Shown here: positions 28,034-41,287 of the stretch, piece after piece
How positions within the stretch are numbered: position 1 is the first letter of the stretch
Layout of the letters: every line of letters starts with the position of its first letter
Source: a virus
Direction: 5' to 3' (one strand)
Virus record (IMG/VR): IMGVR_UViG_3300042892_001369
Span: 1-64,000 of that record
DNA length: 64,000 bases
The notes under the pieces: model-generated
The model's database searches: none
The model's input: only the letters and a program-made list of their open reading frames with translations
What the model was told of the DNA's origin: nothing
Translations under genes and position numbers: made by a program

Positions 28034-28085
28034 GTATAGCATTTACAAGGTTGATACGGGTTGATCTTGATAATATAGGTGTAAC
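28034..28085 (+). promoter_or_regulatory. early promoter P1
   Basis: GTATAGCA, TTTACAA, then TACG and, exactly 12 bases after the T of TACG, TTGATAATAT followed by GTGTAAC. The 65-aa gene follows at 28104 behind an A-rich leader. Member of the 15-copy family described under findings. Confidence 0.75.
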
Positions 28086-28103
28086 AAATTAAATATAAAT
28101 ATT

Positions 28104-28301
28104 ATGGAACTTAGAAATTTAATTACAGAACAGTATGATTTATTATTAACAGATAATAATTATAATATTCCTGAGGATATTGAAATGGAAATTGAGGATC
28201 AAACAGGATTATACAGGGATTTCTGTACAGATACAGAACAGTATCTAGATACCCAGATGGAATGGATTAAATTTATTCTGGACTATCCTATGGAATTCTA
28301 A
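28104..28301 (+). CDS. acidic hypothetical protein
   Basis: 65 aa, strongly acidic (EDIEMEIEDQTGLYRDF, DTEQYLDTQ). First gene of the rightward early block, driven by its own promoter copy and followed by a terminator. Small acidic early phage proteins often act as host-takeover or DNA-mimic inhibitors; nothing more specific can be said. Confidence 0.6.
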   Translation: MELRNLITEQYDLLLTDNNYNIPEDIEMEIEDQTGLYRDFCTDTEQYLDTQMEWIKFILDYPMEF

Positions 28302-28322
28302 CCTCCAGTTATAATCTGATCT

Positions 28323-28341
28323 AACCCCTCAGGGGGTTTTT
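28323..28341 (+). terminator. intrinsic terminator after the first early gene
   Basis: AACCCC, loop TCAG, GGGGTT, then TTTA. A classic short GC stem and U-tract that isolates the first promoter-gene cassette. Confidence 0.75.
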
Positions 28342-28399
28342 ACTCTGCATCCTGCGGAATGGACAGGCGGAGCCGTGGCTACAAGCGAGCGGAGCGAGT

Positions 28400-28451
28400 G
28401 TATAGCACTTACAGACTTAGTACGAAGAGTATTTGATAATATAAATGTAAC
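28400..28451 (+). promoter_or_regulatory. early promoter P2
   Basis: TGTATAGCACTTACA, TACGAAG and, 12 bases from TACG, TTGATAATATAAATGTAAC. Leads to the 60-aa gene at 28466. Preceded by GC-rich GAGCGGAGCGAG repeats. Confidence 0.8.
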
Positions 28452-28465
28452 TAAAATAAATAACT

Positions 28466-28648
28466 ATGATATTAAAAATTAATAAAAATTTCAGATCAAT
28501 TATTACTAATCAATTAATTAATTCAAATAAATTAAACTTTGAATTTAAAATTCTAAACTCAAATTTATTAATCAATTCAAAAGATCTTGAAGAAGTTGAT
28601 AAAATATTAAATAAAAACTTTCACAAATATAAAGTTCTTACAAAGTAG
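28466..28648 (+). CDS. hypothetical small protein
   Basis: 60 aa, Asn/Lys/Leu/Ile-rich (SIITNQLINSNKLNFEFKI). Single gene between promoters P2 and P3. No recognisable motif. Confidence 0.5.
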   Translation: MILKINKNFRSIITNQLINSNKLNFEFKILNSNLLINSKDLEEVDKILNKNFHKYKVLTK

Positions 28649-28680
28649 ATACGAAGAGTAATTGATAATATAAGTGTAAC
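28637..28680 (+). promoter_or_regulatory. early promoter P3
   Basis: CTTACAA, TACGAAG, then TTGATAATATAAGTGTAAC at the fixed 12-base spacing. Overlaps the 3' end of the preceding gene and leads to the 51-aa gene at 28695. Confidence 0.8.
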
Positions 28681-28694
28681 TAAAAATAAATAAT

Positions 28695-28850
28695 ATGAAT
28701 AGAATAGATCAATTAATATTAAATAAATATCCGGATCAATTAGATCAAATCAAAGATAAAATAGAACTATTAAAACTAGACTATGATCAAGATCAATTTC
28801 TTGAAGAAGATATAATAGAATCTATATTAATAGAACTAGATATAATATAA
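28695..28850 (+). CDS. 51-aa acidic hypothetical protein
   Basis: Read directly: ATG at 28695, TAA ending 28850. Helical and acidic (YDQDQFLEEDIIESILIELD). Sits between promoters P3 and P4, which supports it as a gene in spite of its size. Function unknown. Confidence 0.6.
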   Translation: MNRIDQLILNKYPDQLDQIKDKIELLKLDYDQDQFLEEDIIESILIELDII

Positions 28851-28894
28851 TCTACAAACCTAATACGACTAGTAATTGATAATAATAATGTAAC
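28851..28894 (+). promoter_or_regulatory. early promoter P4
   Basis: CTACAAACC, TAATACGACTAG, then TTGATAATAATAATGTAAC at the 12-base spacing. Leads to the gene at 28909. This copy has the TAATACGAC word that starts the T7 promoter; the remainder differs. Confidence 0.8.
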
Positions 28895-28908
28895 TAAAAA
28901 TAAATAAT

Positions 28909-29145
28909 ATGAAATTCTTAGAAAAACAAATCAAAACAAAAAAAGACATTAAAGACTATATTGATAATTTAGTAATTAATAATATGATGTATCATTTTGA
29001 AGACGACTCAAGAGACATACCGGCTTTTGAATTAAGACTAACTCAAGAACAACTTGATCTATTAGATATAAGATCAACCGAAATGTTAAATGTTAATTAT
29101 AACTACACATTTGACTATGCTTGTAAAGTACTAGAAATTGATTAG
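28909..29145 (+). CDS. hypothetical early protein
   Basis: 78 aa, helical, with DNLVINNMMYHFEDDSRDI and ELRLTQEQLDLLDIRST. Single gene between P4 and P5. No family recognised. Confidence 0.55.
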   Translation: MKFLEKQIKTKKDIKDYIDNLVINNMMYHFEDDSRDIPAFELRLTQEQLDLLDIRSTEMLNVNYNYTFDYACKVLEID

Positions 29146-29148
29146 TAT

Positions 29149-29200
29149 GCTATACATCTCTACAGACCTAATACGAAATGAATTTGATAATATAAATGAA
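29149..29200 (+). promoter_or_regulatory. early promoter P5
   Basis: GCTATACAT, CTACAG, TAATACGAAATG and TTTGATAATATAAATGAA at the 12-base spacing. The upstream word is TGCTATACA, the reverse complement of the TGTATAGCA seen at P2, P7 and P8. Leads to the 121-aa gene. Confidence 0.75.
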
Positions 29201-29229
29201 TATAAATAATAACTTAAATAAATAAAATT

Positions 29230-29595
29230 ATGAAAACTAAAGTAACAAAAATCGAAGAAGTAGTTGTAACAACTAAAACAAACAAAGAATTATTAGTTGA
29301 AGCAATCGCAAGTTTATCACAAGAACAATTGGCTCTAATCTATCCGCCAATACAAAGAGCTAACTTTGTAGTAAGAAAGTCGTGGCTAGGTCGCAATCAA
29401 GTAATCACTTTTGTAAACAACAAAAATCAAAAAGTTACTTACAATCATGACGAAGTATTGAATGTAATGCTACCTAAGCTATCTATCATGCCATGTTGGA
29501 TTAAGCGTGAGTATTGGTCACAATCAACTGATATGCCGGCTAATGTTAGACATCTAGCGACTATCGAACAACTGGAAGTTGCAGCGGCTGAATAG
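29230..29595 (+). CDS. hypothetical early protein
   Basis: 121 aa with LVEAIASLSQEQLALIYPPIQ, SWLGRNQVITFVNNKNQKV and a C-terminal ATIEQLEVAA. Probably nucleic-acid or protein-binding; no family recognised. Own promoter P5. Confidence 0.55.
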   Translation: MKTKVTKIEEVVVTTKTNKELLVEAIASLSQEQLALIYPPIQRANFVVRKSWLGRNQVITFVNNKNQKVTYNHDEVLNVMLPKLSIMPCWIKREYWSQSTDMPANVRHLATIEQLEVAAAE

Positions 29596-29652
29596 CCGTT
29601 GTAGCCCACGGGGGTAACCTCAACACGCTGTAATCATTGAGCCTCTGCGAAT

Positions 29653-29704
29653 GCTATACATTTACAGTGTAAATACGAGATCAAAATGATAATATAAATG
29701 TAAC
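29653..29704 (+). promoter_or_regulatory. early promoter P6
   Basis: TGCTATACATTTACAG, TACGAGATC and ATGATAATATAAATGTAAC; first T of the TTG is A, otherwise consensus, spacing 12. Leads to the small gene at 29720. Confidence 0.75.
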
Positions 29705-29719
29705 TAAAATAAATATACT

Positions 29720-29881
29720 ATGAGAAATTTAATCAATGCAATCGAATTACAACAAGAAAAATTACAAGCTTTAAAAATAGTACTTGCTAATATAAACACG
29801 GATGATCCAAACCAATCTACATCCGACTTCTTGAAAGAATTAAATATGAAAATTGTAAACCTAATAATAACCGACTTCTAA
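29720..29881 (+). CDS. 53-aa hypothetical protein
   Basis: Read directly from ATG 29720 to TAA 29881. Helical, with NLINAIELQQEKLQALKI. First gene of a small operon (29720-30428) behind promoter P6; the next gene starts two bases after its stop. Confidence 0.6.
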   Translation: MRNLINAIELQQEKLQALKIVLANINTDDPNQSTSDFLKELNMKIVNLIITDF

Positions 29882-29882
29882 T

Positions 29883-30059
29883 ATGAGAACTGAAAGAATA
29901 CAATTTGAATGCGCTTACGGTTACGGCTATATTGATATAACCAATCGAGGTGATGAAAGAAACACAACATACGAGATAATCATTGAAGATACTTACAGCG
30001 ATGCAACCGAGGATGATGTTATAAATGAAATAAAGATAATTATAAATGAATTGATATGA
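29883..30059 (+). CDS. 58-aa hypothetical protein
   Basis: Read directly: ATG 29883, TGA 30057-30059. Starts TERIQFECAYGYGYIDIT and ends in an acidic helix. Overlaps the next ATG (30056) in ATGA fashion, so translation is probably coupled. Function unknown. Confidence 0.6.
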   Translation: MRTERIQFECAYGYGYIDITNRGDERNTTYEIIIEDTYSDATEDDVINEIKIIINELI

Positions 30060-30202
30060 TAAAAACTAAAACCCAACGCCGAGCCGAGTACGTGCAAGCG
30101 TGCTACAAAAGCGGATCACTCGAATCATACATCGAGCAAAGACTAAACAAACTAAATAATAACCCAGTAAAAGTAACTAAAAATGAAAACACTAGAAAGT
30201 AA
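30056..30202 (+). CDS. 48-aa basic hypothetical protein
   Basis: Read directly: ATG 30056-30058, TAA ending 30202. Sequence is basic and helical (KTKTQRRAEYVQACYKSGS). Overlaps both neighbours by a few bases, supporting translational coupling. Function unknown. Confidence 0.55.
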   Translation: MIKTKTQRRAEYVQACYKSGSLESYIEQRLNKLNNNPVKVTKNENTRK

Positions 30203-30428
30203 CATCATCGCATTGGCAGTATTAAGCTTCTTTGGGGGCGTAACGTTAACAATAGTAATGGGAAACGTATACAACCGTGAAGAATTGCTCAGACAAGAAG
30301 AAAATGAGTTTAAAAACCAAGGTCACACGTTCATTTGGAATGATGATTGGGAATCTATTCCAGCTGAGGGTTATGTAAAGATCGATATGGTTGAGGGTAA
30401 TACAATTTATCTAGCGCCTAGCGAATAA
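30183..30428 (+). CDS. membrane-anchored small protein
   Basis: 81 aa: one membrane segment (IIALAVLSFFGGVTLTIVMG) near the N-terminus then an acidic soluble domain (VKIDMVEGNTIYLAPSE). Last gene of the P6 unit. May act at the host inner membrane, for example in superinfection exclusion; inference. Confidence 0.55.
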   Translation: MKTLESNIIALAVLSFFGGVTLTIVMGNVYNREELLRQEENEFKNQGHTFIWNDDWESIPAEGYVKIDMVEGNTIYLAPSE

Positions 30429-30430
30429 AA

Positions 30431-30443
30431 CACCCGCAGGGTG
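30431..30443 (+). terminator. small hairpin after the P6 operon
   Basis: CACCC GCA GGGTG perfect stem directly after the stop codon, without a U-tract and abutting promoter P7. Weak terminator or RNA-processing signal. Confidence 0.4.
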
Positions 30444-30488
30444 TATAGCATACAGCCCTAACACGGTTGTTTTTTGATAATAATTATG
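30443..30488 (+). promoter_or_regulatory. early promoter P7 (drives no evident gene)
   Basis: GTATAGCATACAG, CACGGTTG and TTTGATAATAATTATG at the 12-base spacing. What follows is not an ORF but a structured sequence, so this copy probably makes a non-coding RNA. Confidence 0.7.
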
Positions 30489-30625
30489 GGTCTGGCTCTG
30501 AAATAAGGTCGAAAGAGTAGACTCCGTCCTACACGATAGTTTCTGGGCTCACCGAACCGTATAAGATCAAAAAAAAAGGTGACGTTAGCCTATTATATTA
30601 TATACTTAAGACCCTAATGTCACAC
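30488..30625 (+). ncRNA. candidate structured small RNA
   Basis: Starts at the expected first base of promoter P7 with GGGTCT, GG, CTCT, a 14-base loop (30500-30513), AGAG, T, AGACTC: a 6+4-bp stem with one wobble. Then TACACGATAG-type small hairpin and GGGCTCACCGAACC. It ends at the inverted repeat 30579-30623 with TTTT, which could serve as its terminator. No matching ncRNA family is recognised by me. There is no start codon with a credible ORF. Confidence 0.45.
30579..30623 (+). repeat. 44-bp inverted repeat, copy 2
   Basis: GTGACGTTAGC, AT-rich centre, CCTAATGTCAC; same architecture as copies at 27650-27693 and 36950-36993, followed by ACTTTTCC. Either an operator or the terminator of the RNA from P7. 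Confidence 0.6.
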
Positions 30626-30667
30626 TTTTCCAAATACTCGGGTCGCCACGGCCCCCCAACACACCGT

Positions 30668-30716
30668 GTATAGCACTTACAAGCATAATACGAGCTCAAT
30701 TTGATAATATATTTGA
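30668..30716 (+). promoter_or_regulatory. early promoter P8
   Basis: GTATAGCACTTACAAG, TAATACGAGCTC, TTTGATAATATATTTGAA, spacing 12. The next 120 bases hold only an 8-codon ATG frame and end in GGGGGTTATATATACATT and a T-run, so its product may be a short RNA. Confidence 0.75.
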
Positions 30717-30854
30717 ATAAAATGACCGATTCTAGTCAATCAAAGTAATAAATGTACCATATTTTGGTGTAAATGTGTTGTTTTGAGTAACAAACGTAGA
30801 GATAGGGGGTTATATATACATTACTTTTTTTTCTTATAAATAAAGTGCAACCTT

Positions 30855-30898
30855 CTTACGGTCTTGATACGAATTGGATTTGATAATATAAGTGTAAG
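30855..30898 (+). promoter_or_regulatory. early promoter P9
   Basis: CTTACGG, TACGAATTGG, TTTGATAATATAAGTGTAAG at the fixed spacing. Leads to the short genes at 30923 and 31048. The gap 30429-30922 holds P7, the candidate RNA, repeat copy 2, P8 and P9, and otherwise no gene that I can support. Confidence 0.8.
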
Positions 30899-30922
30899 TA
30901 TAACAAACTAATATAAACGATT

Positions 30923-31021
30923 ATGACGAATTATTCTAGAGCCTTTAGGGTGGTATTATTAAAATTGAAATTTGAGCTCTTAGAGGGTGCTAAAAACGCT
31001 GCTTGGGCGATGAGAAACTAG
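30923..31021 (+). CDS. 32-aa hypothetical microprotein
   Basis: Read directly: ATG 30923-30925, TAG ending 31021. Basic helix (FRVVLLKLKFELLEGAKNAA). Very short, but directly behind promoter P9 and spaced like other leaders. Could be a leader peptide or real microprotein. Confidence 0.4.
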   Translation: MTNYSRAFRVVLLKLKFELLEGAKNAAWAMRN

Positions 31022-31047
31022 TATTTAACAATTAAAAAGTAATTAAT

Positions 31048-31170
31048 ATGGAAGAATATAGCGATTGTTGTGGTGCAAGTAGACACCATATATTTGATGA
31101 GTTGTGTGGAGATTGTTTAGAACATTGCGAATTTACGGATTGGGATGGAGAAGACGATATACAATCTTAA
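31048..31170 (+). CDS. 40-aa zinc-ribbon-like protein
   Basis: Read directly: ATG 31048-31050, TAA ending 31170. CCGASRHHIFDELCGDC followed by EHCEF: paired Cys of a small zinc ribbon. Similar mini zinc-ribbon proteins are common in phage early arrays. Partner unknown. Confidence 0.65.
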   Translation: MEEYSDCCGASRHHIFDELCGDCLEHCEFTDWDGEDDIQS

Positions 31171-31201
31171 TACGAATTGAGTTTGATAATAAATGTGTAA
31201 C
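31159..31201 (+). promoter_or_regulatory. early promoter P10
   Basis: TATACAATC, TAATACGAATTG, TTTGATAATAAATGTGTAAC, spacing 12. Overlaps the 3' end of the zinc-ribbon gene and leads to a long run of overlapping genes from 31217. Confidence 0.8.
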
Positions 31202-31216
31202 TAAAAAAGATATAAT

Positions 31217-31441
31217 ATGAATTTAGATTTTAAAAAATTGAGTGTGAGTGACCAAGTTAAAGCGGTTGAAAATGTGATTAGGCTTGATAGTATTAACTAC
31301 TTATGCTACTTAATCGGTAACGGTGAAAAATCACACGATGTGTATGGGTGGTTTGTATTAGGTGATAGCTTAGAAGGTGACCAATATTGGTATGATGTAA
31401 GAAACGAAATAACTAAAAGCGAAACAAATGAAAAAGTTTAA
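31217..31441 (+). CDS. hypothetical early protein
   Basis: 74 aa (KKLSVSDQVKAVENVIRLD, YGWFVLGDSLEGDQYWYD). First gene of the P10 operon; overlaps the next by 14 bases. No family recognised. Confidence 0.55.
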   Translation: MNLDFKKLSVSDQVKAVENVIRLDSINYLCYLIGNGEKSHDVYGWFVLGDSLEGDQYWYDVRNEITKSETNEKV

Positions 31442-31619
31442 TGGATTTGAAGCTCACTTATTAGAGGAGGGTTTAAAAAGATATGTCGAGGCTATCGTCG
31501 ATGACATTATTACGGCGGAACACAAAGGTAAACGTCCTATCATGACGGCGGATTATGTTCGTATGATTGAACGTGAGACATTAGAAAAATTAAAAAGTTT
31601 AACTCTAAAACAAAAGTAA
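31428..31619 (+). CDS. hypothetical early protein
   Basis: 63 aa, helical, mixed charge (LLEEGLKRYVEAIVDDIITA; ending LKQK). Overlap with previous gene and one-base spacing to the next indicate coupled translation. Unknown. Confidence 0.55.
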   Translation: MKKFNGFEAHLLEEGLKRYVEAIVDDIITAEHKGKRPIMTADYVRMIERETLEKLKSLTLKQK

Positions 31620-31620
31620 T

Positions 31621-31887
31621 ATGAATAAAATAATAAGTTGTGAGAGTGTGTATTGGTGTGAAGGTGATGACCGTTATGTACGTGTGTTCCAATTAGGCGA
31701 TGAAATTACCGGTATCAACTTCATGCAAGGTGATGATTATGAATTATTCAACGATGACTACCAAGGTATCGATGAAGACTTAACAAACTTTTTCCACGCT
31801 ACAAAAAATCATTTGAGTGGCGACACTAGAATTGAGCGTATTAACCAAGCGATTTGGGCGTGGTTTGACTATAAAAATAACTACTAA
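31621..31887 (+). CDS. acidic hypothetical early protein
   Basis: 88 aa, acidic (YWCEGDDRYVRVFQLGDEI; ELFNDDYQGIDEDL). Single base from the previous stop. Acidic small early proteins may mimic DNA; no further evidence. Confidence 0.5.
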   Translation: MNKIISCESVYWCEGDDRYVRVFQLGDEITGINFMQGDDYELFNDDYQGIDEDLTNFFHATKNHLSGDTRIERINQAIWAWFDYKNNY

Positions 31888-31897
31888 AACGAGTAAT

Positions 31898-32071
31898 ATG
31901 AAAGAGTATAATATTGAAGTGTGCGAAACACTTATAAGAATAGTAACCGTTGAAGCAACGAGTGAAGAACAAGCATTAGAGTTTGTACGGTATGATTATA
32001 ACAATGCGGAATTAGTATTGGATAGCGATGACTTTTTTGATGTGGATTTTGAAATTGTAAATAGAGATTAA
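31898..32071 (+). CDS. DpnD/PcfM-like small protein
   Basis: 57 aa from the preferred ATG 31898-31900 (KEYNIEVCETL); the longer frame from 31817 overlaps the upstream gene and adds unlikely residues. VTVEATSEEQALEFVRYDY, VLDSDDFFDVDFEI is the DpnD/PcfM pattern of a small beta-alpha fold. Function of that family is not well defined; often in mobile elements. Confidence 0.6.
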   Translation: MKEYNIEVCETLIRIVTVEATSEEQALEFVRYDYNNAELVLDSDDFFDVDFEIVNRD

Positions 32072-32072
32072 T

Positions 32073-32276
32073 ATGAATATAGAAATAACAAAGATTGAAG
32101 CAAATGTAATTCAAGTGGCGCTTGACCACCTATACGAGATGCATAGAGAAATAGTAACCGAAGCATTATGTGATAATGATTCCGAAACCGTACGATTTTC
32201 GTCTCACGTGTTAAGTAATATCACAGAGATACAAGAAGAAATAAAATATAAATTAACTTTAGAAACGGATAAATAA
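32073..32276 (+). CDS. hypothetical early protein
   Basis: 67 aa, helical (ALDHLYEMHREIVTEALCDN). One base from the previous gene; one-base overlap with the next ATG (TAATG). Unknown. Confidence 0.5.
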   Translation: MNIEITKIEANVIQVALDHLYEMHREIVTEALCDNDSETVRFSSHVLSNITEIQEEIKYKLTLETDK

Positions 32277-32560
32277 TGAAACAAATAGTAAACACAGTAA
32301 GTACAATAGATTTTAGAGATATAACTAACAATTCGTTTGTTGGTATTGCTTTTGGTCATGACCATAAAGCTATGGTTATTCGAGTAGAACGAGATAAGTT
32401 CATGAGTTTAAGTAACCACAGTTATTGCAATCTACTTGATTGTTGGGATTCAACTACAATGCAAAGTTATATCTCTAAAGCCTTGAGTCAAGGTGATTAT
32501 GTTAAAGCATACGCTTTTAATGATATAAAAGAATTATTAACTTGGTTAACACTTGAATAA
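32276..32560 (+). CDS. hypothetical early protein
   Basis: 94 aa (NNSFVGIAFGHDHKAMVIRV; SYCNLLDCWDSTTMQ). Mixed alpha/beta, no known motif. Coupled with neighbours. Confidence 0.5.
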   Translation: MKQIVNTVSTIDFRDITNNSFVGIAFGHDHKAMVIRVERDKFMSLSNHSYCNLLDCWDSTTMQSYISKALSQGDYVKAYAFNDIKELLTWLTLE

Positions 32561-32561
32561 T

Positions 32562-32900
32562 ATGGCAAATAAAATAACAATGGATTCGGTACATGCTTTT
32601 GTAATAGGGAGGCCGTTTTGTAGACAGAATATGGAGGTAACCGCTAATGACAACGGCGTATACTTAAAACTACACGGTAATGTAATAGCGAGACGTGACC
32701 GTGAAAATGGTGCGGTGTTTATTAGTAATTGTGGTTGGTCTACTAACACAACTAAGATGCGGTTGAATTACTTGCTATACATGTATAACTCGCCCTTCAA
32801 AATCACCCAAAAGAATTGGGTATGGTATCTTGGTGATAAGCAATGGGAAGGCGGTAAGACCTATATATATGATGAGGCTTACAAAGTTAATACGAATTAA
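32562..32900 (+). CDS. hypothetical early protein
   Basis: 112 aa from ATG 32562-32564. VHAFVIGRPFCRQNMEVTA, VIARRDRENGAVFISNCGW and ITQKNWVWYLGDKQWEGG: a compact beta-rich protein. Its 3' end carries promoter P11. Function unknown; nucleic-acid binding possible. Confidence 0.55.
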   Translation: MANKITMDSVHAFVIGRPFCRQNMEVTANDNGVYLKLHGNVIARRDRENGAVFISNCGWSTNTTKMRLNYLLYMYNSPFKITQKNWVWYLGDKQWEGGKTYIYDEAYKVNTN

Positions 32901-32921
32901 GATTGATAATATAAATGTAAC
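32878..32921 (+). promoter_or_regulatory. early promoter P11
   Basis: CTTACAAAG, TAATACGAATTAAGA, TTGATAATATAAATGTAAC, spacing 12; close to the consensus of the whole family. Overlaps the end of the previous gene and leads to 32939. Confidence 0.85.
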
Positions 32922-32938
32922 AAATAAAAATTATAATT

Positions 32939-33241
32939 ATGAATACAACAGGTAAACTAGACAAATTGATCGAAAGTAAAGTAGATCAAAAGATTAGAGA
33001 ATTTTCAACTAAAATAACTAGTCAAATAAAAGACTTTCTTGTAGAAAATGGTGACTATAACGGCGACAGCTTATATCAAGCAAACGGGTTTGACCAAGAA
33101 TATCGCCCTATAGATTATAAGTCAATGAAAATGTACACTATGAATAGTAATCTTAGAGGTGGTTTAGAATTAACCATAAAACAAAATATGATTGATAGAG
33201 CAACAAAAGAATTATTAGAAAAAGTAGAATTATTATCTTAA
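32939..33241 (+). CDS. hypothetical early protein
   Basis: 100 aa, helical N-terminus (KLIESKVDQKIREFSTKI), then QANGFDQEYRPID. No family recognised. First of the P11 unit. Confidence 0.5.
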   Translation: MNTTGKLDKLIESKVDQKIREFSTKITSQIKDFLVENGDYNGDSLYQANGFDQEYRPIDYKSMKMYTMNSNLRGGLELTIKQNMIDRATKELLEKVELLS

Positions 33242-33254
33242 AACAAATATAATT

Positions 33255-33503: not shown

Positions 33504-33514
33504 AAATTATAACT

Positions 33515-33724
33515 ATGGCAAGAATTAAATATCGAGGTGAAGGAATAGAAGTTGAATATAATCTTTATGGTGATTATTACGCAGCTACTAATGATAGTCA
33601 AGAAGAATACCCGGATGTAATTATTGATGCAGTATATTATAATGAAGTTAATATACTACCATTATTAAGCTACGAAGATCAAGAAGAAATAAGTGAAACT
33701 TTAATTGACTATTTATATGGATAA
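33515..33724 (+). CDS. acidic hypothetical early protein
   Basis: 69 aa; YRGEGIEVEYNLYGDYYAAT and a Glu-rich tail (EDQEEISETLIDYLYG). Overlaps the next gene by 8 bases. Unknown. Confidence 0.5.
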   Translation: MARIKYRGEGIEVEYNLYGDYYAATNDSQEEYPDVIIDAVYYNEVNILPLLSYEDQEEISETLIDYLYG

Positions 33725-34207: not shown

Positions 34208-34251
34208 CTTACAAACATAACACGATTAACAATTGATAATATTAATGTAAC
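34208..34251 (+). promoter_or_regulatory. early promoter P12
   Basis: CTTACAAAC, AACACGATTAAC, TTGATAATATTAATGTAAC at spacing 12. Leads to 34269. Confidence 0.8.
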
Positions 34252-34268: not shown

Positions 34269-34625
34269 ATGACACAAGATCAAAAAACTCTATTTGAAGT
34301 ATCAATTTCAAAAGTAAACAACTCTGCTAGCAGTATCTTTTCTAAAGATGACGTGATTGGCTTATTAACAACATTAGAATCATGCATCGCCGATTCACCT
34401 AAAGAAACAGGTGTTAATTATGACTGTGATGCAATTGTGCGAGCATTCAACGACATATTTGATGAATATGATTTCGATGAATTTGTATCTTTTGAACCTG
34501 AGCTATGTGGATCATACGGCAGTAGCTATTCACTTGAAATAAACCACAGCTTTGATGACAGTGAACTTAGAAGATGTATTATTAACGACCTAGAAAAATA
34601 TTTTTCACCTAACGAACCAGAATAA
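34269..34625 (+). CDS. hypothetical early protein
   Basis: 118 aa, Ser/Asp/Glu-rich (STSKDDVIGLLTTLE-like N-terminus; DEYDFDEFVSFEPELCG). Possibly a conserved early phage protein; no motif I can name. Confidence 0.5.
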   Translation: MTQDQKTLFEVSISKVNNSASSIFSKDDVIGLLTTLESCIADSPKETGVNYDCDAIVRAFNDIFDEYDFDEFVSFEPELCGSYGSSYSLEINHSFDDSELRRCIINDLEKYFSPNEPE

Positions 34626-35165: not shown

Positions 35166-35206
35166 TTACAAAGATAATACGAATACTAACTGATAATATA
35201 ATAAAC
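35166..35206 (+). promoter_or_regulatory. early promoter P13 (weakest copy)
   Basis: TTACAAAG, TAATACGAATAC, CTGATAATATAATAAAC. The TTG is CTG and the distal TGTAAC is degenerate, but spacing 12 is kept. Leads to 35215. Confidence 0.65.
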
Positions 35207-35214: not shown

Positions 35215-35646
35215 ATGAACTTACAAACATTTTTATCCGAAGTATTAAAAAATAATGGTGGTAGTTATAATATAACAACTGGTGAATCAAATCCAACTGA
35301 CGGTTATATGGTATCATTACCAAATTGTGAAGAGATCTTTAATGCTGATGACTTATGCGCTACTGTGTTAAGCGAATATATAATCGATAACGCCGATGAA
35401 TTATCTTCAGAACATAGTTTTGTAGGTTTATGGATTGATAATGGTATGGTCTATCTTGATGTGTCAGTAAAGTATGATGATCTTGAAACCGCTTGTTATG
35501 TTGGTATTATTAACGATCAAAAAGCAATCTACGATAATGCAAATGCGGTTGCTATACACCTGCCAACTCCGCAACGATCTGGCACAATGACGCAACAACG
35601 AACATATAATTATATGGCTGCACAAAAAGCAGCTGGATTAATATAA
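35215..35646 (+). CDS. conserved early phage protein
   Basis: 143 aa. NITTGESNPTDGYMVSLPN, YLDVSVKYDDLETACYVG, IINDQKAIYDN, and a C-terminal TMTQQRTYNYMAAQKAAG. Family resembles conserved proteins of aquatic phages; function unknown. The last gene before the structured RNA region. Confidence 0.55.
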   Translation: MNLQTFLSEVLKNNGGSYNITTGESNPTDGYMVSLPNCEEIFNADDLCATVLSEYIIDNADELSSEHSFVGLWIDNGMVYLDVSVKYDDLETACYVGIINDQKAIYDNANAVAIHLPTPQRSGTMTQQRTYNYMAAQKAAGLI

Positions 35647-35746: not shown

Positions 35747-35750
35747 AAAA

Positions 35751-35822
35751 GAACTAAGTCTGGTAGCCATTGAGTTGGTAACGACCGACGGGTTTTGGGG
35801 TTCGATTCCCCTTTTAGTTCCA
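35751..35822 (+). ncRNA. tRNA-like structure (degenerate tRNA)
   Basis: GAACTAA (35751-35757) pairs perfectly with TTAGTTC (35814-35820), followed by CA. A strict T-arm GGGG TTCGATT CCCC occupies 35797-35811. In between, GTTGG TAACGA CCGAC (35774-35789) makes a 5-bp stem with a 6-base loop, and a TGG-TAG-CCA mini-hairpin replaces the D arm. The total is about 72 nt, slightly short for a tRNA, with a 6-base anticodon-type loop. So it is tRNA-like, not a normal tRNA. tmRNA was considered because the 5' domain looks TGATTTCTGG-like, but the ends do not pair. Confidence 0.5.
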
Positions 35823-35831
35823 AATTAATAA

Positions 35832-35875
35832 CATACAAAACAAACACGAATATTAATTGATAATAATAATGTAAC
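35832..35875 (+). promoter_or_regulatory. early promoter P14
   Basis: CATACAAAAC, AACACGAATATTAA, TTGATAATAATAATGTAAC, spacing 12. Leads to the gene at 35891. Confidence 0.8.
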
Positions 35876-35890
35876 TAAAACAAATTAACT

Positions 35891-36334
35891 ATGAATATAT
35901 TTTATTTAGACCGCGATCCTTATAAAGCCGCGGCAAAGCACTACAACAAGCACGTAGTAAAAATGGTATTGGAAGCTGCTCAATTACTTTGTACAGCGCA
36001 TCATCTTGAAGGTAATCCAGACGACGTGCCTTATAAAAAGACACACATGAATCATCCGTCAGCAGTATGGGTACGATCATCAAAAGCAAACTATATGTGG
36101 TGCTACGAATATATGTTAGCTCTTGGTAAAGAATATACAAGACGATACGGCAAGTCTCATTTGACTATTGAGAAGTGTAGAGATATTCTATATAACATAC
36201 CAAATAAAATCAAATCTGAAGACTTCTGTGATCCTCCACAATGTATGCCGGACGAATACAAAATGGCCGATGCAGTACAAGGTTATCAAAAATATTATGA
36301 ATTTGGCAAAGCACATTTAAAAGATAAAGTATGA
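35891..36334 (+). CDS. conserved phage protein, DxxPxxAAxxHxxKHVVKM family
   Basis: 147 aa. FYLDRDPYKAAAKHYNKHVVK continues into LEAAQLLCTAHH, NHPSAVWVRSSKANYMW, and YTRRYGKSHLT. This His-rich family is common in phages and is sometimes annotated as a pyrimidine-dimer glycosylase-like protein; I cannot confirm an activity. First of a coupled set (36331 overlaps ATGA). Confidence 0.6.
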   Translation: MNIFYLDRDPYKAAAKHYNKHVVKMVLEAAQLLCTAHHLEGNPDDVPYKKTHMNHPSAVWVRSSKANYMWCYEYMLALGKEYTRRYGKSHLTIEKCRDILYNIPNKIKSEDFCDPPQCMPDEYKMADAVQGYQKYYEFGKAHLKDKV

Positions 36335-36516
36335 CAAAACAAGAAATAATTTCAGAACTAGACATTATATCTGCTGTTGCAGAAGTTAATGAAAATACAT
36401 TGATCTACAATAAAGTAAAAAGAATTAAAGATTGTTTAATAGATGAGTGGAATCTTAGCGATTTTTATATGGATTTGATGATTAAAGAACTATATTATTA
36501 TGAAACTACAACTTAA
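36331..36516 (+). CDS. hypothetical helical protein
   Basis: 61 aa, ELDIISAVAEVNENTLIYN and a helical rest. Overlaps the previous gene by ATGA and the next by 17 bases. Unknown. Confidence 0.5.
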   Translation: MTKQEIISELDIISAVAEVNENTLIYNKVKRIKDCLIDEWNLSDFYMDLMIKELYYYETTT

Positions 36517-36676
36517 CAATTACGGAAAAATAATGACATACGAAACAGCGTATGATGATGTTAACTTAGAAGAATACTTTGAAGCGTTCGAAGGCTTATT
36601 AGTACAAGCGACATTTAACCAAAAAAATATTAGAGAGTTCATTGTAGAACTTGCAGAATCATATAAAGAAGAATAA
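36500..36676 (+). CDS. 58-aa acidic hypothetical protein
   Basis: Read directly: ATG 36500-36502, TAA ending 36676. Acidic (DDVNLEEYFEAFEGLL). Coupled to its neighbours. Unknown. Confidence 0.55.
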   Translation: MKLQLNNYGKIMTYETAYDDVNLEEYFEAFEGLLVQATFNQKNIREFIVELAESYKEE

Positions 36677-36678
36677 TT

Positions 36679-36939
36679 ATGACAGACGAACAAATTGAAA
36701 AATTAGCAGAATTAGTTTTCCAAAAACTATTAGACAAACAAAAAGAATGGGATCAACAATTTAATAAAGACATTTACACAGAGTTAGATTTACCTGATTC
36801 AGTGCACATTGCCACGCAATTAGCCATATCAGAGATGCTACTAAAACAGTATGTTGAAGACGAAGATTATTACCTAGCGGGGGAAATACAAAAAACAATA
36901 AAAATATTAACTGACAAGTTAAATACAATGAATGATTAG
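36679..36939 (+). CDS. helical acidic hypothetical protein
   Basis: 86 aa, QIEKLAELVFQKLLDKQKE and QYVEDEDYYLAGEIQKTI. A short coiled coil followed by an acidic helix. Unknown. Confidence 0.5.
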   Translation: MTDEQIEKLAELVFQKLLDKQKEWDQQFNKDIYTELDLPDSVHIATQLAISEMLLKQYVEDEDYYLAGEIQKTIKILTDKLNTMND

Positions 36940-36968
36940 TTGACAAATAGTGACGTCAGCTTATTAAG
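36939..36968 (+). promoter_or_regulatory. candidate promoter of the HTH gene
   Basis: TTGACA (36939-36944 region) is followed by about 17 bases and TATTAA-like sequence. One half-site of the inverted repeat (GTGACGTCAGC) lies between these boxes, which would suit repression by blocking. The -35 form is unusual for Bacteroidota, so this is tentative. Confidence 0.4.
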
Positions 36969-36993
36969 ATAATTAAATAACAGGCTAATGTCA
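36950..36993 (+). repeat. 44-bp inverted repeat, copy 3, overlapping the HTH gene start
   Basis: GTGACGTCAGC, AT-rich centre, GGCTAATGTCA. The right arm includes the ATG of the HTH gene (36988-36990). Same sequence type as copies at 27650-27693 and 30579-30623. Suggests autoregulation of the HTH protein. Confidence 0.65.
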
Positions 36994-37608
36994 TACGATA
37001 GAAATTTAGACTACTTAAATAAAAAGAGAGTGATATATAGACGTGGACCATTAAATGATAAGCCAACCGAGGAGTTTAGTTGGGGTAGTTATTATGAAGA
37101 AGGTACAAAAGAATGTTATGAGTTATTTCGCAGTAATGCAAAGATAACTACATATAAGTCATTGCGATGGCATCTATATGTTCTTTGGTATCTAAATGAT
37201 AATCTTGATCAAAACGCATTTGAAAGTATTGTTAGGTATGTATGTGATAAAAAGAATGGCTTTATAACTTTTACAGTTAGTGAGCAATTACTACAAAGCA
37301 TGATGTACGATGTATCTCTTAAAGACCTTGAAGAACCCCCATATAATAAAACAAGAAAGATAATCTTTAAAGACAACAGTGGGCTTACATTAAATGAGAA
37401 GCTAAGCATAGTTGGTAAAATGATTGGTAAAACTAAAAAGGTAAATGAGTCTGATATATATGACGTTATGCTATACATGCATGACATCGGCCAAAAAATA
37501 ACGATCAAAAAAATTGCGGAGCATTTTGGTTGTGCAATACGAACTATCCATCGCAATATGAGCAATGAATTAAAAAAAGAAAAAGAAATCCTTAATCAAG
37601 AATTATGA
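36988..37608 (+). CDS. HTH protein, candidate regulator
   Basis: 206 aa. Middle part PPYNKTRKIIFKDNSGLTLNE and KMIGKTKKVNESDIY; C-terminal helix-turn-helix QKITIKKIAEHFGCAIRTIHRN (trimmed), followed by a Lys/Glu-rich tail. The family is known from aquatic phages in this position. The start ATG is within repeat copy 3, making this the natural binder of that repeat; this is inference. Alternative: replication initiation factor. Confidence 0.6.
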   Translation: MSYDRNLDYLNKKRVIYRRGPLNDKPTEEFSWGSYYEEGTKECYELFRSNAKITTYKSLRWHLYVLWYLNDNLDQNAFESIVRYVCDKKNGFITFTVSEQLLQSMMYDVSLKDLEEPPYNKTRKIIFKDNSGLTLNEKLSIVGKMIGKTKKVNESDIYDVMLYMHDIGQKITIKKIAEHFGCAIRTIHRNMSNELKKEKEILNQEL

Positions 37609-37823
37609 CACCAAAAGAAAAAGCGGAAGAGTTAGTAAATAAATATTTAAGAACATATCCAATATACGATAATCCAACTGTAGTAATATCTTATACTAAT
37701 ACTGAAGCTAAAAGCTGTGCATTAATAGCAGTTGATGAGATATTGAAAATAACTTGGGTTGACAAATTTTTAATTACAGAAGATTATTGGCAAGAAGTTA
37801 AACAAGAAATAGAGAAATTATGA
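37605..37823 (+). CDS. hypothetical small protein
   Basis: 72 aa; KEKAEELVNKYLRTYPIYDN, ALIAVDEILKITWV. Four-base overlap (ATGA) with the HTH gene and with the following gene. Such helical proteins are frequent in phage replication-region operons. Unknown. Confidence 0.55.
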   Translation: MTPKEKAEELVNKYLRTYPIYDNPTVVISYTNTEAKSCALIAVDEILKITWVDKFLITEDYWQEVKQEIEKL

Positions 37824-37912
37824 AGTATTTTTTAATATGGTTAGGTTATGAATTTATAAGACCAAAAATTATTTGGCTATGGTATTATTTAATTAATAAA
37901 GGAACGGAATGA
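37820..37912 (+). CDS. 30-aa membrane microprotein
   Basis: Read directly: ATG 37820-37822, TGA ending 37912. YFLIWLGYEFIRPKIIWLWY is hydrophobic and aromatic. Overlaps both neighbours by four bases, so it is translationally coupled. Possible membrane peptide. Confidence 0.5.
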   Translation: MKYFLIWLGYEFIRPKIIWLWYYLINKGTE

Positions 37913-38109
37913 CACAATTTATTAAATTTACGCTAATGTGGATTAGCCAGAACTTAGCAATACCTTTTTGGGTTGTGGGACATGTGCATTTAACTATAAA
38001 TATATATGAAGATATACATGAAATAATAGCATCATTTGGCATGAATATAATAGTTGCAATAGGTTTTTGGATAGAATGGAAAAACAATATAAAACAAAAT
38101 AGAACATGA
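37909..38109 (+). CDS. small two-segment membrane protein
   Basis: 66 aa. Hydrophobic stretches FTLMWISQNLAIPFWVVGHV (first) and IIASFGMNIIVAIGFWI (second), with a basic tail. Follows the membrane microprotein in an overlapping chain. Could be part of a membrane-associated early function. Confidence 0.55.
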   Translation: MTQFIKFTLMWISQNLAIPFWVVGHVHLTINIYEDIHEIIASFGMNIIVAIGFWIEWKNNIKQNRT

Positions 38110-38432
38110 AACTAAAAGAATTACGAAGCTTACCATTTAGAAAATGGGACGAGGTAAAGTCATACAAAAGTATTTTAGTAATACCAAGTGGTAAAAAACA
38201 TGAGAGTGGATGGGCTTTAATGTATGTTATTGGTTTAAATGAAGAACAAAAGCCAATAGAAATTGCAGCATGTTGCGACGATATTTGTTGGAAGATTCCG
38301 GAATCAATAGAGTATGATTTTAGAAACGATATGTTTTATCCAAGCGGTGCAATACATTTTTGGAGTAGAAAATATTCTTTTGAAGTTGGAACATCATTAT
38401 CGAGTACTGATATATCATTAATTAAAAAATAA
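38106..38432 (+). CDS. hypothetical protein
   Basis: 108 aa, beta-rich: SILVIPSGKKHESGWALMYV, IEIAACCDDICWKIP, AIHFWSRKYSFEVG. The second stretch holds a Cys pair (CCDDIC). Overlaps the membrane protein by four bases. Unknown; co-transcribed with the sigma factor. Confidence 0.5.
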   Translation: MKLKELRSLPFRKWDEVKSYKSILVIPSGKKHESGWALMYVIGLNEEQKPIEIAACCDDICWKIPESIEYDFRNDMFYPSGAIHFWSRKYSFEVGTSLSSTDISLIKK

Positions 38433-38438
38433 ATAAAT

Positions 38439-39200
38439 ATGAAAAGTTACAACATACCAAATTACCTTAGGTATAAAGAAGACATAGCTCGTGTTAATAA
38501 AAATAATAATGAAGCAGAATTTAAATCGTACTCAAGAGATCAACTTATAAGTAAATTCCTACCATTAGTAGAAAATATAGCCAAAAAGTTCTCAACAACG
38601 ACGCAAGCCTGTGGAGTATTAGATATTACGGATCTTATTCAGCATGGATCAATTGGTTTAATATTAGCCGTTGATAAAATAGAATGGGACACAATAGACT
38701 TGTCTGCTGATAAAGAAAAAACAATTAAGTCGTTTCTATCAAAAAGAATTAAAGGCTCAATTAGACGAGCTATAGACATCAACAGAGGTGCTATTAAAAT
38801 TCCAGAGCATAAGCTAAATGAAATTAGAAAAGACAATGGTCAAGATCATAAAATGGTTGCCATGTTTTTCAATTCCATATTCCTTAGTATCGATGAACAA
38901 ATGAATGATGATGACGAAAATATGTTGTACCAAATCCCTGATAGAACAGAGCCGTACAATATTAATATGATGAATAAGTATTTAACAGGATTGTTGAAGA
39001 AACATTTAACAGAAACGGAATACGATGTACTACGATTAAGTTATGGACTTGATTGTGATAAACATCCTGCAAATGCAATAGCAGACTATTTAGGCATCGA
39101 AGGAGCAAGTGCTTATGTTAGAATTTCTGAGATAAAAAAGCAAGCAATCGCTAAGCTAGTTGCTAACGTTGATTCCTCGCAAGTCCTTGATTACCTATAA
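38439..39200 (+). CDS. phage-encoded sigma-70-like factor
   Basis: 253 aa. Region 2: LVENIAKKFSTTTQACGVL and DITDLIQHGSIGLILAVDKI (trimmed), then FLSKRIKGSIRRAIDINRG. Region 4: YDVLRLSYGLDCDKHPANAI, YVRISEIKKQAIAKL. The family redirects host RNA polymerase. It lies just upstream of the replication genes, and the window holds a dedicated promoter family (15 copies), so it may recognise those or the late promoter. Early versus late assignment is inference. Confidence 0.85.
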   Translation: MKSYNIPNYLRYKEDIARVNKNNNEAEFKSYSRDQLISKFLPLVENIAKKFSTTTQACGVLDITDLIQHGSIGLILAVDKIEWDTIDLSADKEKTIKSFLSKRIKGSIRRAIDINRGAIKIPEHKLNEIRKDNGQDHKMVAMFFNSIFLSIDEQMNDDDENMLYQIPDRTEPYNINMMNKYLTGLLKKHLTETEYDVLRLSYGLDCDKHPANAIADYLGIEGASAYVRISEIKKQAIAKLVANVDSSQVLDYL

Positions 39201-39212
39201 GTTATATTAAAA

Positions 39213-39245
39213 TTTGTAACAAAAATTAACTAAATATGTTACAAA
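39213..39245 (+). promoter_or_regulatory. TTTGTAAC palindrome upstream of recombination genes
   Basis: TTTGTAAC (39213-39220) and GTTACAAA (39238-39245) form a perfect 8-bp inverted repeat with a 17-base spacer. Likely an operator in front of the ERF operon. Confidence 0.45.
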
Positions 39246-39272
39246 ATACGTAATTATATTAATATAGAACAA
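39246..39272 (+). promoter_or_regulatory. degenerate member of the early promoter family
   Basis: TACG, then at the 12-base offset TTAATATAGAAC instead of TTGATAATATAA. Keeps spacing but has several mismatches. May be the promoter of the ERF/exonuclease/SSB genes. Confidence 0.35.
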
Positions 39273-39350
39273 GAGTAAATTTTAATGTTTTTTACTCTCG
39301 AAAATAAAACAAGAGTAAACTTTAATGTTTTTTACTCTCGAAAATAAAAC
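39271..39350 (+). repeat. two-unit 40-bp tandem repeat
   Basis: Units 39271-39310 and 39311-39350 are identical except for one T/C. Each holds AAGAGTAAA and TTTTTTACTCTCG, which can pair as a hairpin. The AAGAGTAAA...TTTACTCTT pattern also surrounds the terminator at 3633-3659. Lies in the leader of the ERF operon. Confidence 0.8.
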
Positions 39351-39366
39351 CAATTAAATTAAATAT

Positions 39367-39939
39367 ATGACAAAAAAAGAAGACCCAACAATGTCTTTGC
39401 ATGAAAAATTATCTAGGATCCAAGTAGAATTTAAAGCTAACAAAAGTAAATTCAATTCCTTTGGAAAATATAATTTTAGATCGGCAGAAGATATATTAGA
39501 AGCATTAAAACCTTTCAATGAAAAGTATGCTGTCTATTTTGTGATTAAGGAGCATGTAACTTATAATGGTTCATTGCCAATTATGTTATCGAGTGCTACA
39601 ATTTATGATGTTAATGGAACAGATTCTATTGAAGCGACTGCTGTAGTCGGTGTTGACTTAGTTCAAAAAGGTATGCAAACACCTCAAGCGTTTGGATCAG
39701 CGTCGTCTTATGGAAAGAAGTATGCATTAGGTAATCTATTATTGATTGATGATACTCAAGATGCAGATGCAACTAATACGCACGGCAAAGCTGCTGCGCC
39801 AGTATCTAAAAGTAAACTTGATGTAGGAGATGCGGCATTTGAAAAAGCAAAAGCATTTATTGCTAATGGTGGATCATTAGATGCAATCAAAACAAAGTAT
39901 GACTTAACAGATGCTGCACTAAAAGAATTAACACCATAA
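39367..39939 (+). CDS. erf: ERF-family single-strand annealing protein
   Basis: 190 aa. KYNFRSAEDILEALKPFNEK, then QAFGSASSYGKKYALGNLLLI (trimmed here) with following DDTQDADA: the ERF signature. A shorter start at Met9 (SLHEKL) is possible. Anneals single strands and works with the exonuclease immediately downstream and the SSB that follows. C-terminal ~40 residues are a loose linker and a small helical end. Confidence 0.9.
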   Translation: MTKKEDPTMSLHEKLSRIQVEFKANKSKFNSFGKYNFRSAEDILEALKPFNEKYAVYFVIKEHVTYNGSLPIMLSSATIYDVNGTDSIEATAVVGVDLVQKGMQTPQAFGSASSYGKKYALGNLLLIDDTQDADATNTHGKAAAPVSKSKLDVGDAAFEKAKAFIANGGSLDAIKTKYDLTDAALKELTP

Positions 39940-39943
39940 CTAT

Positions 39944-40684
39944 ATGACAGACGAACAAATTAAAACTGTATTAAAACGATTAGAAAATGATGAAGACTAT
40001 TACGGCGATTTCGGAAAACAATTTTTATCTAACTCCGACATAAGAGCATTATTAAAAGATCCATTAACATTTAAGCAACCGATAATCGGTAATCCAAACT
40101 TAATTAAAGGATCATACTTTCACACATTAATATTAGAGCCAGATAAACTGGAAAAGATTAAAATCATTGATGCAACAACTCGTAACACTTCGAGGTATAA
40201 AGAATTATCAAATGGTGAAATGTGTTTACTGCAGCACGAAGCAGACTCAATAGAGTTATTAAGAGATGCTGTCTTAGAAAACTCAGTAACACGAGACTTA
40301 ATCAGAGATATCGATGTTGAATATGAAGTTCCCGGATTAATAAAATTAGAAGATGAATGGTTCAAATTAAAAGCAGATATTAAGAACAATACACAAGGTT
40401 TGATAGTAGATTTAAAAACAACGTCTGACATAGATAAATTCAGATATTCTGCAAAAGAATACAATTATGACAGTCAAGCCTACATATATTCTAAATATTT
40501 CAATATGGATATGGTATTTATTGCTGTAGACAAAACATCAAGTAAGATAGGAGTATATGATTGCTCACCACAATTCTTAGAAAGTGGTAAGTATAAAGTT
40601 GAGAAAGCAGTAGAGACATATCGACTATTCTTCAAAGATGAAAATTTTAACTTAAAAGATTATTGTATAACAGAAACACTTTAA
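39944..40684 (+). CDS. RecE-like PD-(D/E)XK exonuclease
   Basis: 246 aa. KGSYFHTLILEPDK near residue 55 and the catalytic core FKLKADIKNN with LIVDLKTTSDIDKF (D...DLK), then YDSQAYIYSKY, the typical RecE/lambda-exonuclease-like family pattern. Produces single-stranded tails for ERF annealing. Five bases from ERF, and SSB lies two genes downstream: a complete recombination set. Confidence 0.85.
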   Translation: MTDEQIKTVLKRLENDEDYYGDFGKQFLSNSDIRALLKDPLTFKQPIIGNPNLIKGSYFHTLILEPDKLEKIKIIDATTRNTSRYKELSNGEMCLLQHEADSIELLRDAVLENSVTRDLIRDIDVEYEVPGLIKLEDEWFKLKADIKNNTQGLIVDLKTTSDIDKFRYSAKEYNYDSQAYIYSKYFNMDMVFIAVDKTSSKIGVYDCSPQFLESGKYKVEKAVETYRLFFKDENFNLKDYCITETL

Positions 40685-40694
40685 AAAAAAAATT

Positions 40695-40853
40695 ATGAAA
40701 AAAGTAACATTAGCATTAGCAGTATTAGGATTTATTTTTGTATCTTGCAAACAAGAAAGCAATTTAACTAAAGACGAAGTCGCAGTAGATACAACAACTG
40801 TTGATAGCACCGCAGTAGACACGACAACCGTAGATTCAGTAACTAATAAATAA
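40695..40853 (+). CDS. 52-aa lipoprotein with TVDST repeats
   Basis: Read directly: ATG 40695-40697, TAA ending 40853. Signal: KKVTLALAVLGFIFVSC with a lipobox FVSC; mature part repeats AVDTTTVDS. Between the exonuclease and SSB genes. A surface or inner-membrane lipoprotein in an early operon could mediate superinfection exclusion; this is inference. Confidence 0.65.
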   Translation: MKKVTLALAVLGFIFVSCKQESNLTKDEVAVDTTTVDSTAVDTTTVDSVTNK

Positions 40854-40859
40854 TTATAT

Positions 40860-41177
40860 ATGGCGAGTATTATTAAAGCGAGTATCAACTTAAACGAGAT
40901 ACCAAAGCACAAGATCATTGATGGTAAGAAAGGGAAGTACTTACCTATTACCATTACTATCAATGATGAAGTTGATCAGTTTGGAAATCAAGGACCAGTA
41001 ATGGTCGAACAATCAAAAGAAGAAAGGGAATCAAAAGCTACAAAAGTTTATCTTGGCAATGTAAAAGTTGTATGGACAAATGGAACTAATGTAGCAGCAG
41101 CTCCTCAAAACGGACAAGCACCGCCGCAAAAACAAGCGCAGTCTTTTGCGCCACAAGCGGACGATCTCCCCTTCTAA
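40860..41177 (+). CDS. ssb: single-stranded DNA-binding protein
   Basis: 105 aa. Ends with the acidic DDLPF tip that SSB proteins use to recruit partners, preceded by a Gln/Pro/Ala-rich linker. The N-terminal ~70 residues (KYLPITITINDEVDQFG, LGNVKVVW) fit an OB-fold. Position after ERF and exonuclease and before the primase-helicase supports the role. Confidence 0.75.
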   Translation: MASIIKASINLNEIPKHKIIDGKKGKYLPITITINDEVDQFGNQGPVMVEQSKEERESKATKVYLGNVKVVWTNGTNVAAAPQNGQAPPQKQAQSFAPQADDLPF

Positions 41178-41201
41178 ATTTATAAGTTTAAATAGTTAGT
41201 T

Positions 41202-41223
41202 AAGCCCCACAAGTTGGGGTTTA
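41202..41223 (+). terminator. intrinsic terminator after ssb
   Basis: AAGCCCCA, ACAAGT-type loop, TGGGGTT followed by TAATT. A short stem that closes the recombination operon before promoter P15. Confidence 0.7.
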
Positions 41224-41241
41224 ATTATCTATAATAATGAG

Positions 41242-41287
41242 CTTTTACAATACAAACACGATAACACATTGATAATATATATGTAAC
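41242..41287 (+). promoter_or_regulatory. early promoter P15
   Basis: CTTTTACAATAC, AACACGATAACACA, TTGATAATATATATGTAAC, spacing 12. The last copy, about 60 bases before the primase-helicase gene. Confidence 0.8.

Follow-up and report, generated by a model that had tools for sequence, protein, structure and literature searches.

We identified a family of 15 plus-strand promoter elements in a 64,000-nucleotide stretch of viral DNA (positions 1 to 64,000 of IMG/VR record IMGVR_UViG_3300042892_001369; hereafter, the window) that are likely read by the host core RNA polymerase carrying a phage-encoded sigma factor. The elements lie within 28044–41286 and share the consensus TTACAR-N4-AAYACGA-N8-TGATAATA-N3-ATG. 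All 15 places listed in the original prediction exist on the plus strand, with starts that were 0–12 bases off the element ends (P1, for example, spans 28044–28084), and the fixed internal spacing that it described is exact: counting from the Y of YACG as offset 0, TAC (-11 to -9), ACG (1 to 3), and TGATAATA (13 to 20) occupy identical offsets in 15 of 15 copies with zero indels. The A residues at -2/-1 ahead of YACG and an ATG at +24 to +26 are also conserved. The shared words named earlier were partly too strict; TTACAA is exact in only 7 of 15 copies, whereas TAC is present in all (consensus TTACAR), and TTGATAATAT and TGTAAC are exact in nine and ten copies, respectively, whereas TGATAATA is found in all 15.

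The family stands far above background. Searching for YACG-N8-TTGATAATAT with up to two mismatches returned 19 matches, compared to a mean of 2.2 and a maximum of 7 in 100 shuffled sequences. Using a matrix built from the 15 sites, members score 32–53 bits (20–50 bits when left out in turn), the next best place in the 64 kb scores 9.3 bits, and no first-order random sequence exceeds 11.1 bits. As had been claimed, the copies precede genes or RNA candidates: 13 are followed by an open reading frame (ORF) and two (P7 and P8) by non-coding stretches. Each element is given below from -37 to +4 relative to the predicted transcription start (+1); all are on the plus strand.

P1, 28044–28084 (+): predicted +1 at 28081; then ORF 28104–28301.
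P2, 28410–28450 (+): predicted +1 at 28447; then ORF 28466–28648.
P3, 28639–28679 (+): predicted +1 at 28676; then ORF 28695–28850.
P4, 28853–28893 (+): predicted +1 at 28890; then ORF 28909–29145.
P5, 29161–29201 (+): predicted +1 at 29198; then ORF 29230–29595.
P6, 29663–29703 (+): predicted +1 at 29700; then ORF 29720–29881.
P7, 30451–30491 (+): predicted +1 at 30488; then a conserved non-coding RNA.
P8, 30678–30718 (+): predicted +1 at 30715; then a stretch without an ORF.
P9, 30857–30897 (+): predicted +1 at 30894; then ORF 30923–31021.
P10, 31160–31200 (+): predicted +1 at 31197; then ORF 31217–31441.
P11, 32880–32920 (+): predicted +1 at 32917; then ORF 32939–33241.
P12, 34210–34250 (+): predicted +1 at 34247; then ORF 34269–34625.
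P13, 35167–35207 (+): predicted +1 at 35204; then ORF 35215–35646.
P14, 35834–35874 (+): predicted +1 at 35871; then ORF 35891–36334; the closest copy 5' of the sigma gene and its neighbor.
P15, 41246–41286 (+): predicted +1 at 41283; then the primase/helicase ORF 41350–43065.

Relative to +1, TTACAR lies at -38 to -33 (-35-like), AAYACGA at -28 to -22, and GATAAT at -12 to -7, followed by a purine at +1. The unusual part of the promoter is the second upstream box, AAYACGA, which is located within the spacer. The original prediction saw no normal sigma-70 spacing, and this holds for the -35 side, where 20 bp separate the end of TACAR from GATAAT in place of the 16–18 bp spacer of a sigma-type -35, but not for the -10 and +1, which have ordinary sigma-70 geometry with A at -11, T at -7, and the purine at the expected distance.

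Evidence for a transcription start comes from sites picked on the upstream boxes alone (offsets -12 to 4) in 65 loci fetched by their sigma gene plus the window. This selection yielded 327 sites, compared to 29 on the opposite strand, and 302 of the 327 carry an exact GATAAT. The +1 position (offset 26) is a purine in all 302 exact-GATAAT sites (G in 161, A in 141), and the neighboring positions are mixed. When loci fetched by pattern and by sigma are pooled (389 distinct sites), the start codon of the first ORF peaks at offsets 45–48 (125 of 355), corresponding to a leader of 19–22 nucleotides, with a small leaderless class at offsets 26 and 28 (+1/+3). Leaders in the window are 19–23 nucleotides for nine of the 13 coding promoters, the exceptions being P13 (11), P9 (29), P5 (32), and P15 (67). 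A conserved small RNA lies behind P7:

30488–30532 (+): core of the small RNA, GGGUCUGGCUCUGAAAUAAGGUCGAAAGAGUAGACUCCGUCCUAC, with the onset of conservation at the predicted +1.

In 12 aligned copies, 31 of the 45 core positions are invariant (form in relatives: GGGCCUGRCUUUGAAAUAGNGUCGGAAGAGUAGACUCCGUCCUAC), and conservation starts at the predicted +1 irrespective of the bases between +1 and the -10. No Rfam family matched the core. Because of the purine-only +1, the start-codon spacing, and the small RNA conserved from +1, the sequence data support the 15 elements as promoters.

Several other features accompany this region. GTATAGCA or TGCTATAC often lies directly upstream of TTACAR in the first promoters (in the early block of many relatives; in the window, e.g., 28034–28041 and 30443–30450) and is a possible further promoter element in a subset of copies. 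An element with GTGAC(G/A)TTAG ... CTAATGTCAC arms occurs twice, at about 27650–27700 and 30577–30633, with AGGGG(G)TTATATA 30–150 bases later; in many relatives this element also occurs 3' of the small RNA. A tRNA-like stretch at about 35749–35823, ending in GGTTCGATTCCCCTTTTAGTTCCA, lies just 5' of P14, and ARAGORN calls no tRNA there; Rfam RNA and tRNA readings of the promoter region were rejected after returning no matches. The divergent late and early blocks are separated by a GC-rich, CGTATCG-rich region with weak ORFs only (27740–28040). Late genes were considered as family members and rejected, with a single degenerate site in the window that is not conserved in relatives:

61596–61639 (-): degenerate single copy, AATAC-N10-TGATAATAATTAT, 9.3 bits, not a member; the ATG of the late ORF 60155–61600 stands at its predicted +1.

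The proposed reader of P1–P15 is encoded within the same block:

38439–39200 (+): sigma-70 family factor with regions 2 and 4.

The window protein matches PHROG_351 (3e-21). Of 35 orthologues, 32 have region 2 by Pfam PF04542 (2.7e-9 at best; at 23.1 bits, the window protein falls just short of the cut-off of 24), and 23 have the region 4 HTH (helix-turn-helix) by PF04545, with C-terminal helices predicted mostly at a pLDDT (predicted local distance difference test score) of 77–89. Foldseek returned SigA chains at E~4e-6 with low TM (template modeling) scores, the domains being loosely placed, and when structures were matched by sequence, FliA (1rp3) ranked among the best. This protein is a diverged member of the sigma-70 family with at least 233 relatives.

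Motif and sigma gene co-occur in both directions, which agrees, at the sequence level, with the earlier proposal that ties this product to the promoters. The motif is common among uncultured phages. Among the many multi-copy IMG/VR contigs listed by a motif pattern scan, we chose 50 records; sites were on one strand only in all but two, reversed-pattern controls gave zero, and 39 records encode a full-length sigma orthologue (E<=1e-107). The remaining 11 are 43–58 kb and may be fragments. Conversely, the 15-site matrix of the window detected the motif in 56 of 71 sigma-chosen loci (267 same-strand sites, 2 opposite, 0 in shuffled sequence, and 0 with the reversed matrix), mostly 2–9 kb 5' of the sigma gene. 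In L221 and L242, and in the motif-chosen records G016 and G017, the motif immediately precedes the sigma gene. Contigs chosen by terminase or portal (sigma in 5 of 24, motif in 9 of 24) are mostly short fragments and weakly informative, and a consensus search of phage records returned only scattered AT-rich partial matches. Motif and sigma appear to diverge together: L174, whose sigma is the most diverged (53%), carries nine sites with TTGCAGA, AACGA or AACGT, N9, and a TATAAT-type -10 (TATAATA) in the same geometry; the TATAAT at exactly the -10 place supports naming GATAAT as the -10. L227 has a further variant.

Sigma region 2.4 aligns with that of FliA, both having RIKGAI, and the FliA -10, GCCGATAA, also has G before ATAA within the promoter TAAAGTTT-n11-GCCGATAA (PMC2859248). 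In contrast to FliA promoters, the phage promoter lacks TAAAGTTT at the right distance and GCC before GATAA, and it has the additional AAYACGA, so that only G(-12)ATAA fits the FliA pattern.

A second conserved gene accompanies the sigma gene:

36988–37608 (+): conserved 206-amino-acid protein with a C-terminal HTH (xxRTIHRNMxxELKKEK), candidate sigma partner.

Homologues are present in 62 of 65 sigma loci, and in many relatives the gene runs up to or slightly into the sigma start codon. A search of the PDB with the predicted fold of the protein (pLDDT 89) gave no significant match. Because no standard sigma contact explains AAYACGA, the HTH protein would be the natural candidate reader of that box.

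In the mechanism that we propose, P1–P15 would drive the early/DNA-metabolism block, with GATAAT contacted by sigma region 2 and the -35 box by region 4. Either the sigma itself or the HTH protein would recognize the spacer box, the latter case giving a two-protein initiation machine. Because the sigma and HTH genes lie downstream of P1–P14, positive feedback may also operate. The roles of the sigma as reader and of the HTH protein as partner, like the feedback, are what the arrangement suggests.

The base at -13, next to GATAAT, behaves as a letter specific to each phage. With matrix column -13 flattened, 377 sites from 50 sigma-chosen genomes showed a within-genome identity of 0.82 at this position, compared to 0.28 when shuffled (z 34), and 31 of the 50 genomes are fully uniform (0.19 expected), a pattern that favors a trans-acting reader. 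Recent promoter duplication does not account for this uniformity because the free spacer positions (-21 to -16) are near the shuffled level (0.28–0.40 vs. 0.27–0.35). Mapped on the sigma tree, the letter shows nine or more changes. It is T in the window, and whole records, picked for uniform-looking loci, have C in 10/10 (G087) and 9/9 sites (G086), A in 7/7 (G088), or G in 7/7 (G084); mixed genomes also exist (e.g., L203, L213, and L219). In fewer phages the -35 is phage-specific as well (TATA in L226 and L213; TAGA in L206). We tentatively suggest, with somewhat less than even confidence, that a two-protein machine of sigma and HTH reads the three-box promoter and that the -13 letter, sometimes with the -35, is a private address insulating each phage from its relatives and its host.

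Several observations weigh against the sigma factor as reader of P1–P15. The spacer box at -28 to -22 is a non-standard sigma contact. No host-type box for a first round of transcription was found 5' of any window gene; therefore, virion delivery of a factor or an unrecognized start is needed. Five sigma loci with 8.5–10 kb of upstream sequence (L174, L227, L222, L223, and L230) have no site detected by the window matrix; variant motifs occur in L174 and L227, and no clear variant was found in L222, L223, or L230. In the sigma, the HTH protein, and eight further conserved proteins, no residue distinguishes genomes with A at -13 from those with G, sigmas with an identical region 2.4 stretch are paired with different -13 bases, and mutual information over these proteins returned only clade-following columns (T clade vs. 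rest), the T group being confounded by clade effects. L174 has T at -12 despite the same RIKGAIRRAIDIN stretch. Finally, a weaker late-strand motif, GTAATAATA, exists in sigma-bearing phages, with GTAATAAT found in 12 of the 106 late gaps against 1.6 expected, and its -13 is still T where the early promoters of the phage have C.

Either another factor reads this late motif, as a second promoter class, or the motif is what the sigma actually recognizes. We prefer the former because the sigma has a region 4, GATAAT shares G-12 with FliA promoters, and RIKGAI is common to both sigmas, although the FliA-based part of this argument is weakened by L174. Candidate late promoters of the GTAATAATA type occur in late-strand gaps (e.g., 5' of 17239 and 13765) and in relatives, and a separate conserved element, TATTAACC, is present in eight late-strand gaps (0.3 expected).

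If the sigma were instead the late factor for the GTAATAATA class, P1–P15 would be early promoters used by host polymerase with another phage protein, such as a MotA-like HTH activator. We consider this unlikely, even though it draws on several features: the sigma gene lies distally in the promoter-rich block, as expected of a late factor, a separate late-strand motif exists, TACAR and TACGA, 11 bp apart, resemble an activator site, and the HTH gene co-occurs as tightly as the sigma gene. T4 middle promoters, which use a MotA box, likewise have a conserved box centered between -35 and -20 with a -10 at fixed distance; in contrast, the phage elements have two boxes and a non-host -10, and the searches made found no MotA or AsiA homologue. 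GATAAT is not a host box, and if an activator were all that was added, the -10 should still be readable by the host. A sigma with a region 4 is also more in keeping with promoters that have an upstream box than with those that lack it.

It is very improbable that P1–P15 are read by an RNA polymerase that the virion delivers or the phage encodes (a crAss-like virion RNA polymerase or a single-subunit T7-type enzyme). The structural genes related to crAss-like phages (crAss_MUZ_C), a late protein of 2936 amino acids, and the missing host-type early promoter would fit it, as would TAATACGA, which resembles the first part of the T7 promoter. However, among the proteins scanned, which cover the large ORFs including the 2936-amino-acid one, none matched an RNA polymerase family, the -10/+1 geometry and the TATAAT variant of L174 are sigma-70-like, and the boxes reach -38 and include a sigma-type -10 rather than forming a continuous T7-type promoter from -17 to +6. 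Just as improbable are repressor operators or conserved 5' leaders, which the weak inverted repeat of TTACA and TGTAA and a palindrome in the same places of the sister phage MW202828 might suggest, but which fit poorly with the purine-only position, the start-codon spacing, the absence of TGTAAC from 5 of 15 copies, and a spacer that is free in sequence though fixed in length.

The host is probably a member of the Bacteroidota, judging by the GenBank relatives, which are phages of Flavobacterium, Cellulophaga, Tenacibaculum, and Maribacter, and by metagenome bins, although half of these fall outside the Bacteroidota. The flavobacterial sigma-A promoter box is TAnnTTTG, and the alternative promoter classes of F. 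psychrophilum are unlike the motif (PMC9723704). Reading of P1–P15 by host sigma-A was rejected: consistent with the earlier statement that the element does not resemble the Bacteroidota promoter, TAnnTTTG is found in 0 of 32 upstream stretches of the window, and only P8 has TATATTTG, displaced relative to the -10. The original prediction named the motif in host promoters as evidence against itself; we searched 295 genomes from the class to which a Saprospiraceae bin belongs, and none has the full motif. A phage-specific promoter class is thus supported by sequence. As in Flavobacteria, leaders are A-rich without a Shine-Dalgarno sequence, and the core polymerase is likely identical; in contrast, TAnnTTTG is nearly absent 5' of genes in seven sigma-bearing phages (3 of 196 stretches, under chance).

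Relatives without the sigma gene differ. The sigma, the HTH protein, and the motif are all missing from MW202828 (complete) and from the 50 kb covered for each of elemoA_7-9A and phi13:2, and MW202828 shares 65% identity with the window in terminase and 50% in portal. TAnnTTTG lies 5' of genes in 9 of 28 stretches of MW202828 (0.4 expected) and 14 of 26 of elemoA (1.5 expected); in phi13:2 it is near chance (4 of 37, 2.4 expected). Because MW202828 and elemoA have TAnnTTTG and sigma-bearing phages almost none, the promoter code of the sigma-bearing lineage differs from that of two of its three sigma-less relatives. MW202828 (L268/L269) also has the palindrome GTGTCGTTAACGACAC, perhaps a repressor operator, 5' of at least seven early genes and a gene annotated as repressor.

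Among the late-strand and virion genes, ORF 48380–57190 (-) encodes the 2936-amino-acid late protein, which contains a DFDDTL motif and is conserved at its C-terminal part among relatives; it has the look of a large polyvalent protein that may be injected. ORF 60155–61600 (-) has a Crassvirus muzzle C-terminal domain (Pfam 2.9e-8) that ties the virion to crAss-like phages, and GroEL is encoded at 15677–17239.

Phages SPO1 (gp28 and gp33/34) and T4 (gp55) encode sigma factors that have a dedicated promoter class. As in those systems, a sigma-70 family protein would redirect the host core to phage promoters that are absent from the host; unlike them, the window has three boxes with a fixed spacer box, a per-phage -13, and a conserved HTH neighbor, its promoters stand across early genes including the sigma's own block, and host-type promoters are nearly gone. 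To our knowledge, little is known about gene control in environmental Bacteroidota phages related to crAss-like phages and Pachyviridae, and full-text literature searches on the sequence, on Flavobacterium and Bacteroidetes phage promoters, and on crAss-like sigma factors and early promoters returned nothing describing this promoter class. The analysis yields a promoter class, base-level predicted starts for 15 transcripts, and a candidate reader open to in vitro test. The per-phage -13 is a natural experiment in which sigma specificity would shift while at least 10 promoters shift along with it. If the sigma/promoter pairs are orthogonal, they would be ready insulated expression parts for Bacteroidota, and if the address reading is true, related phages would be transcriptionally insulated from one another and from their host.

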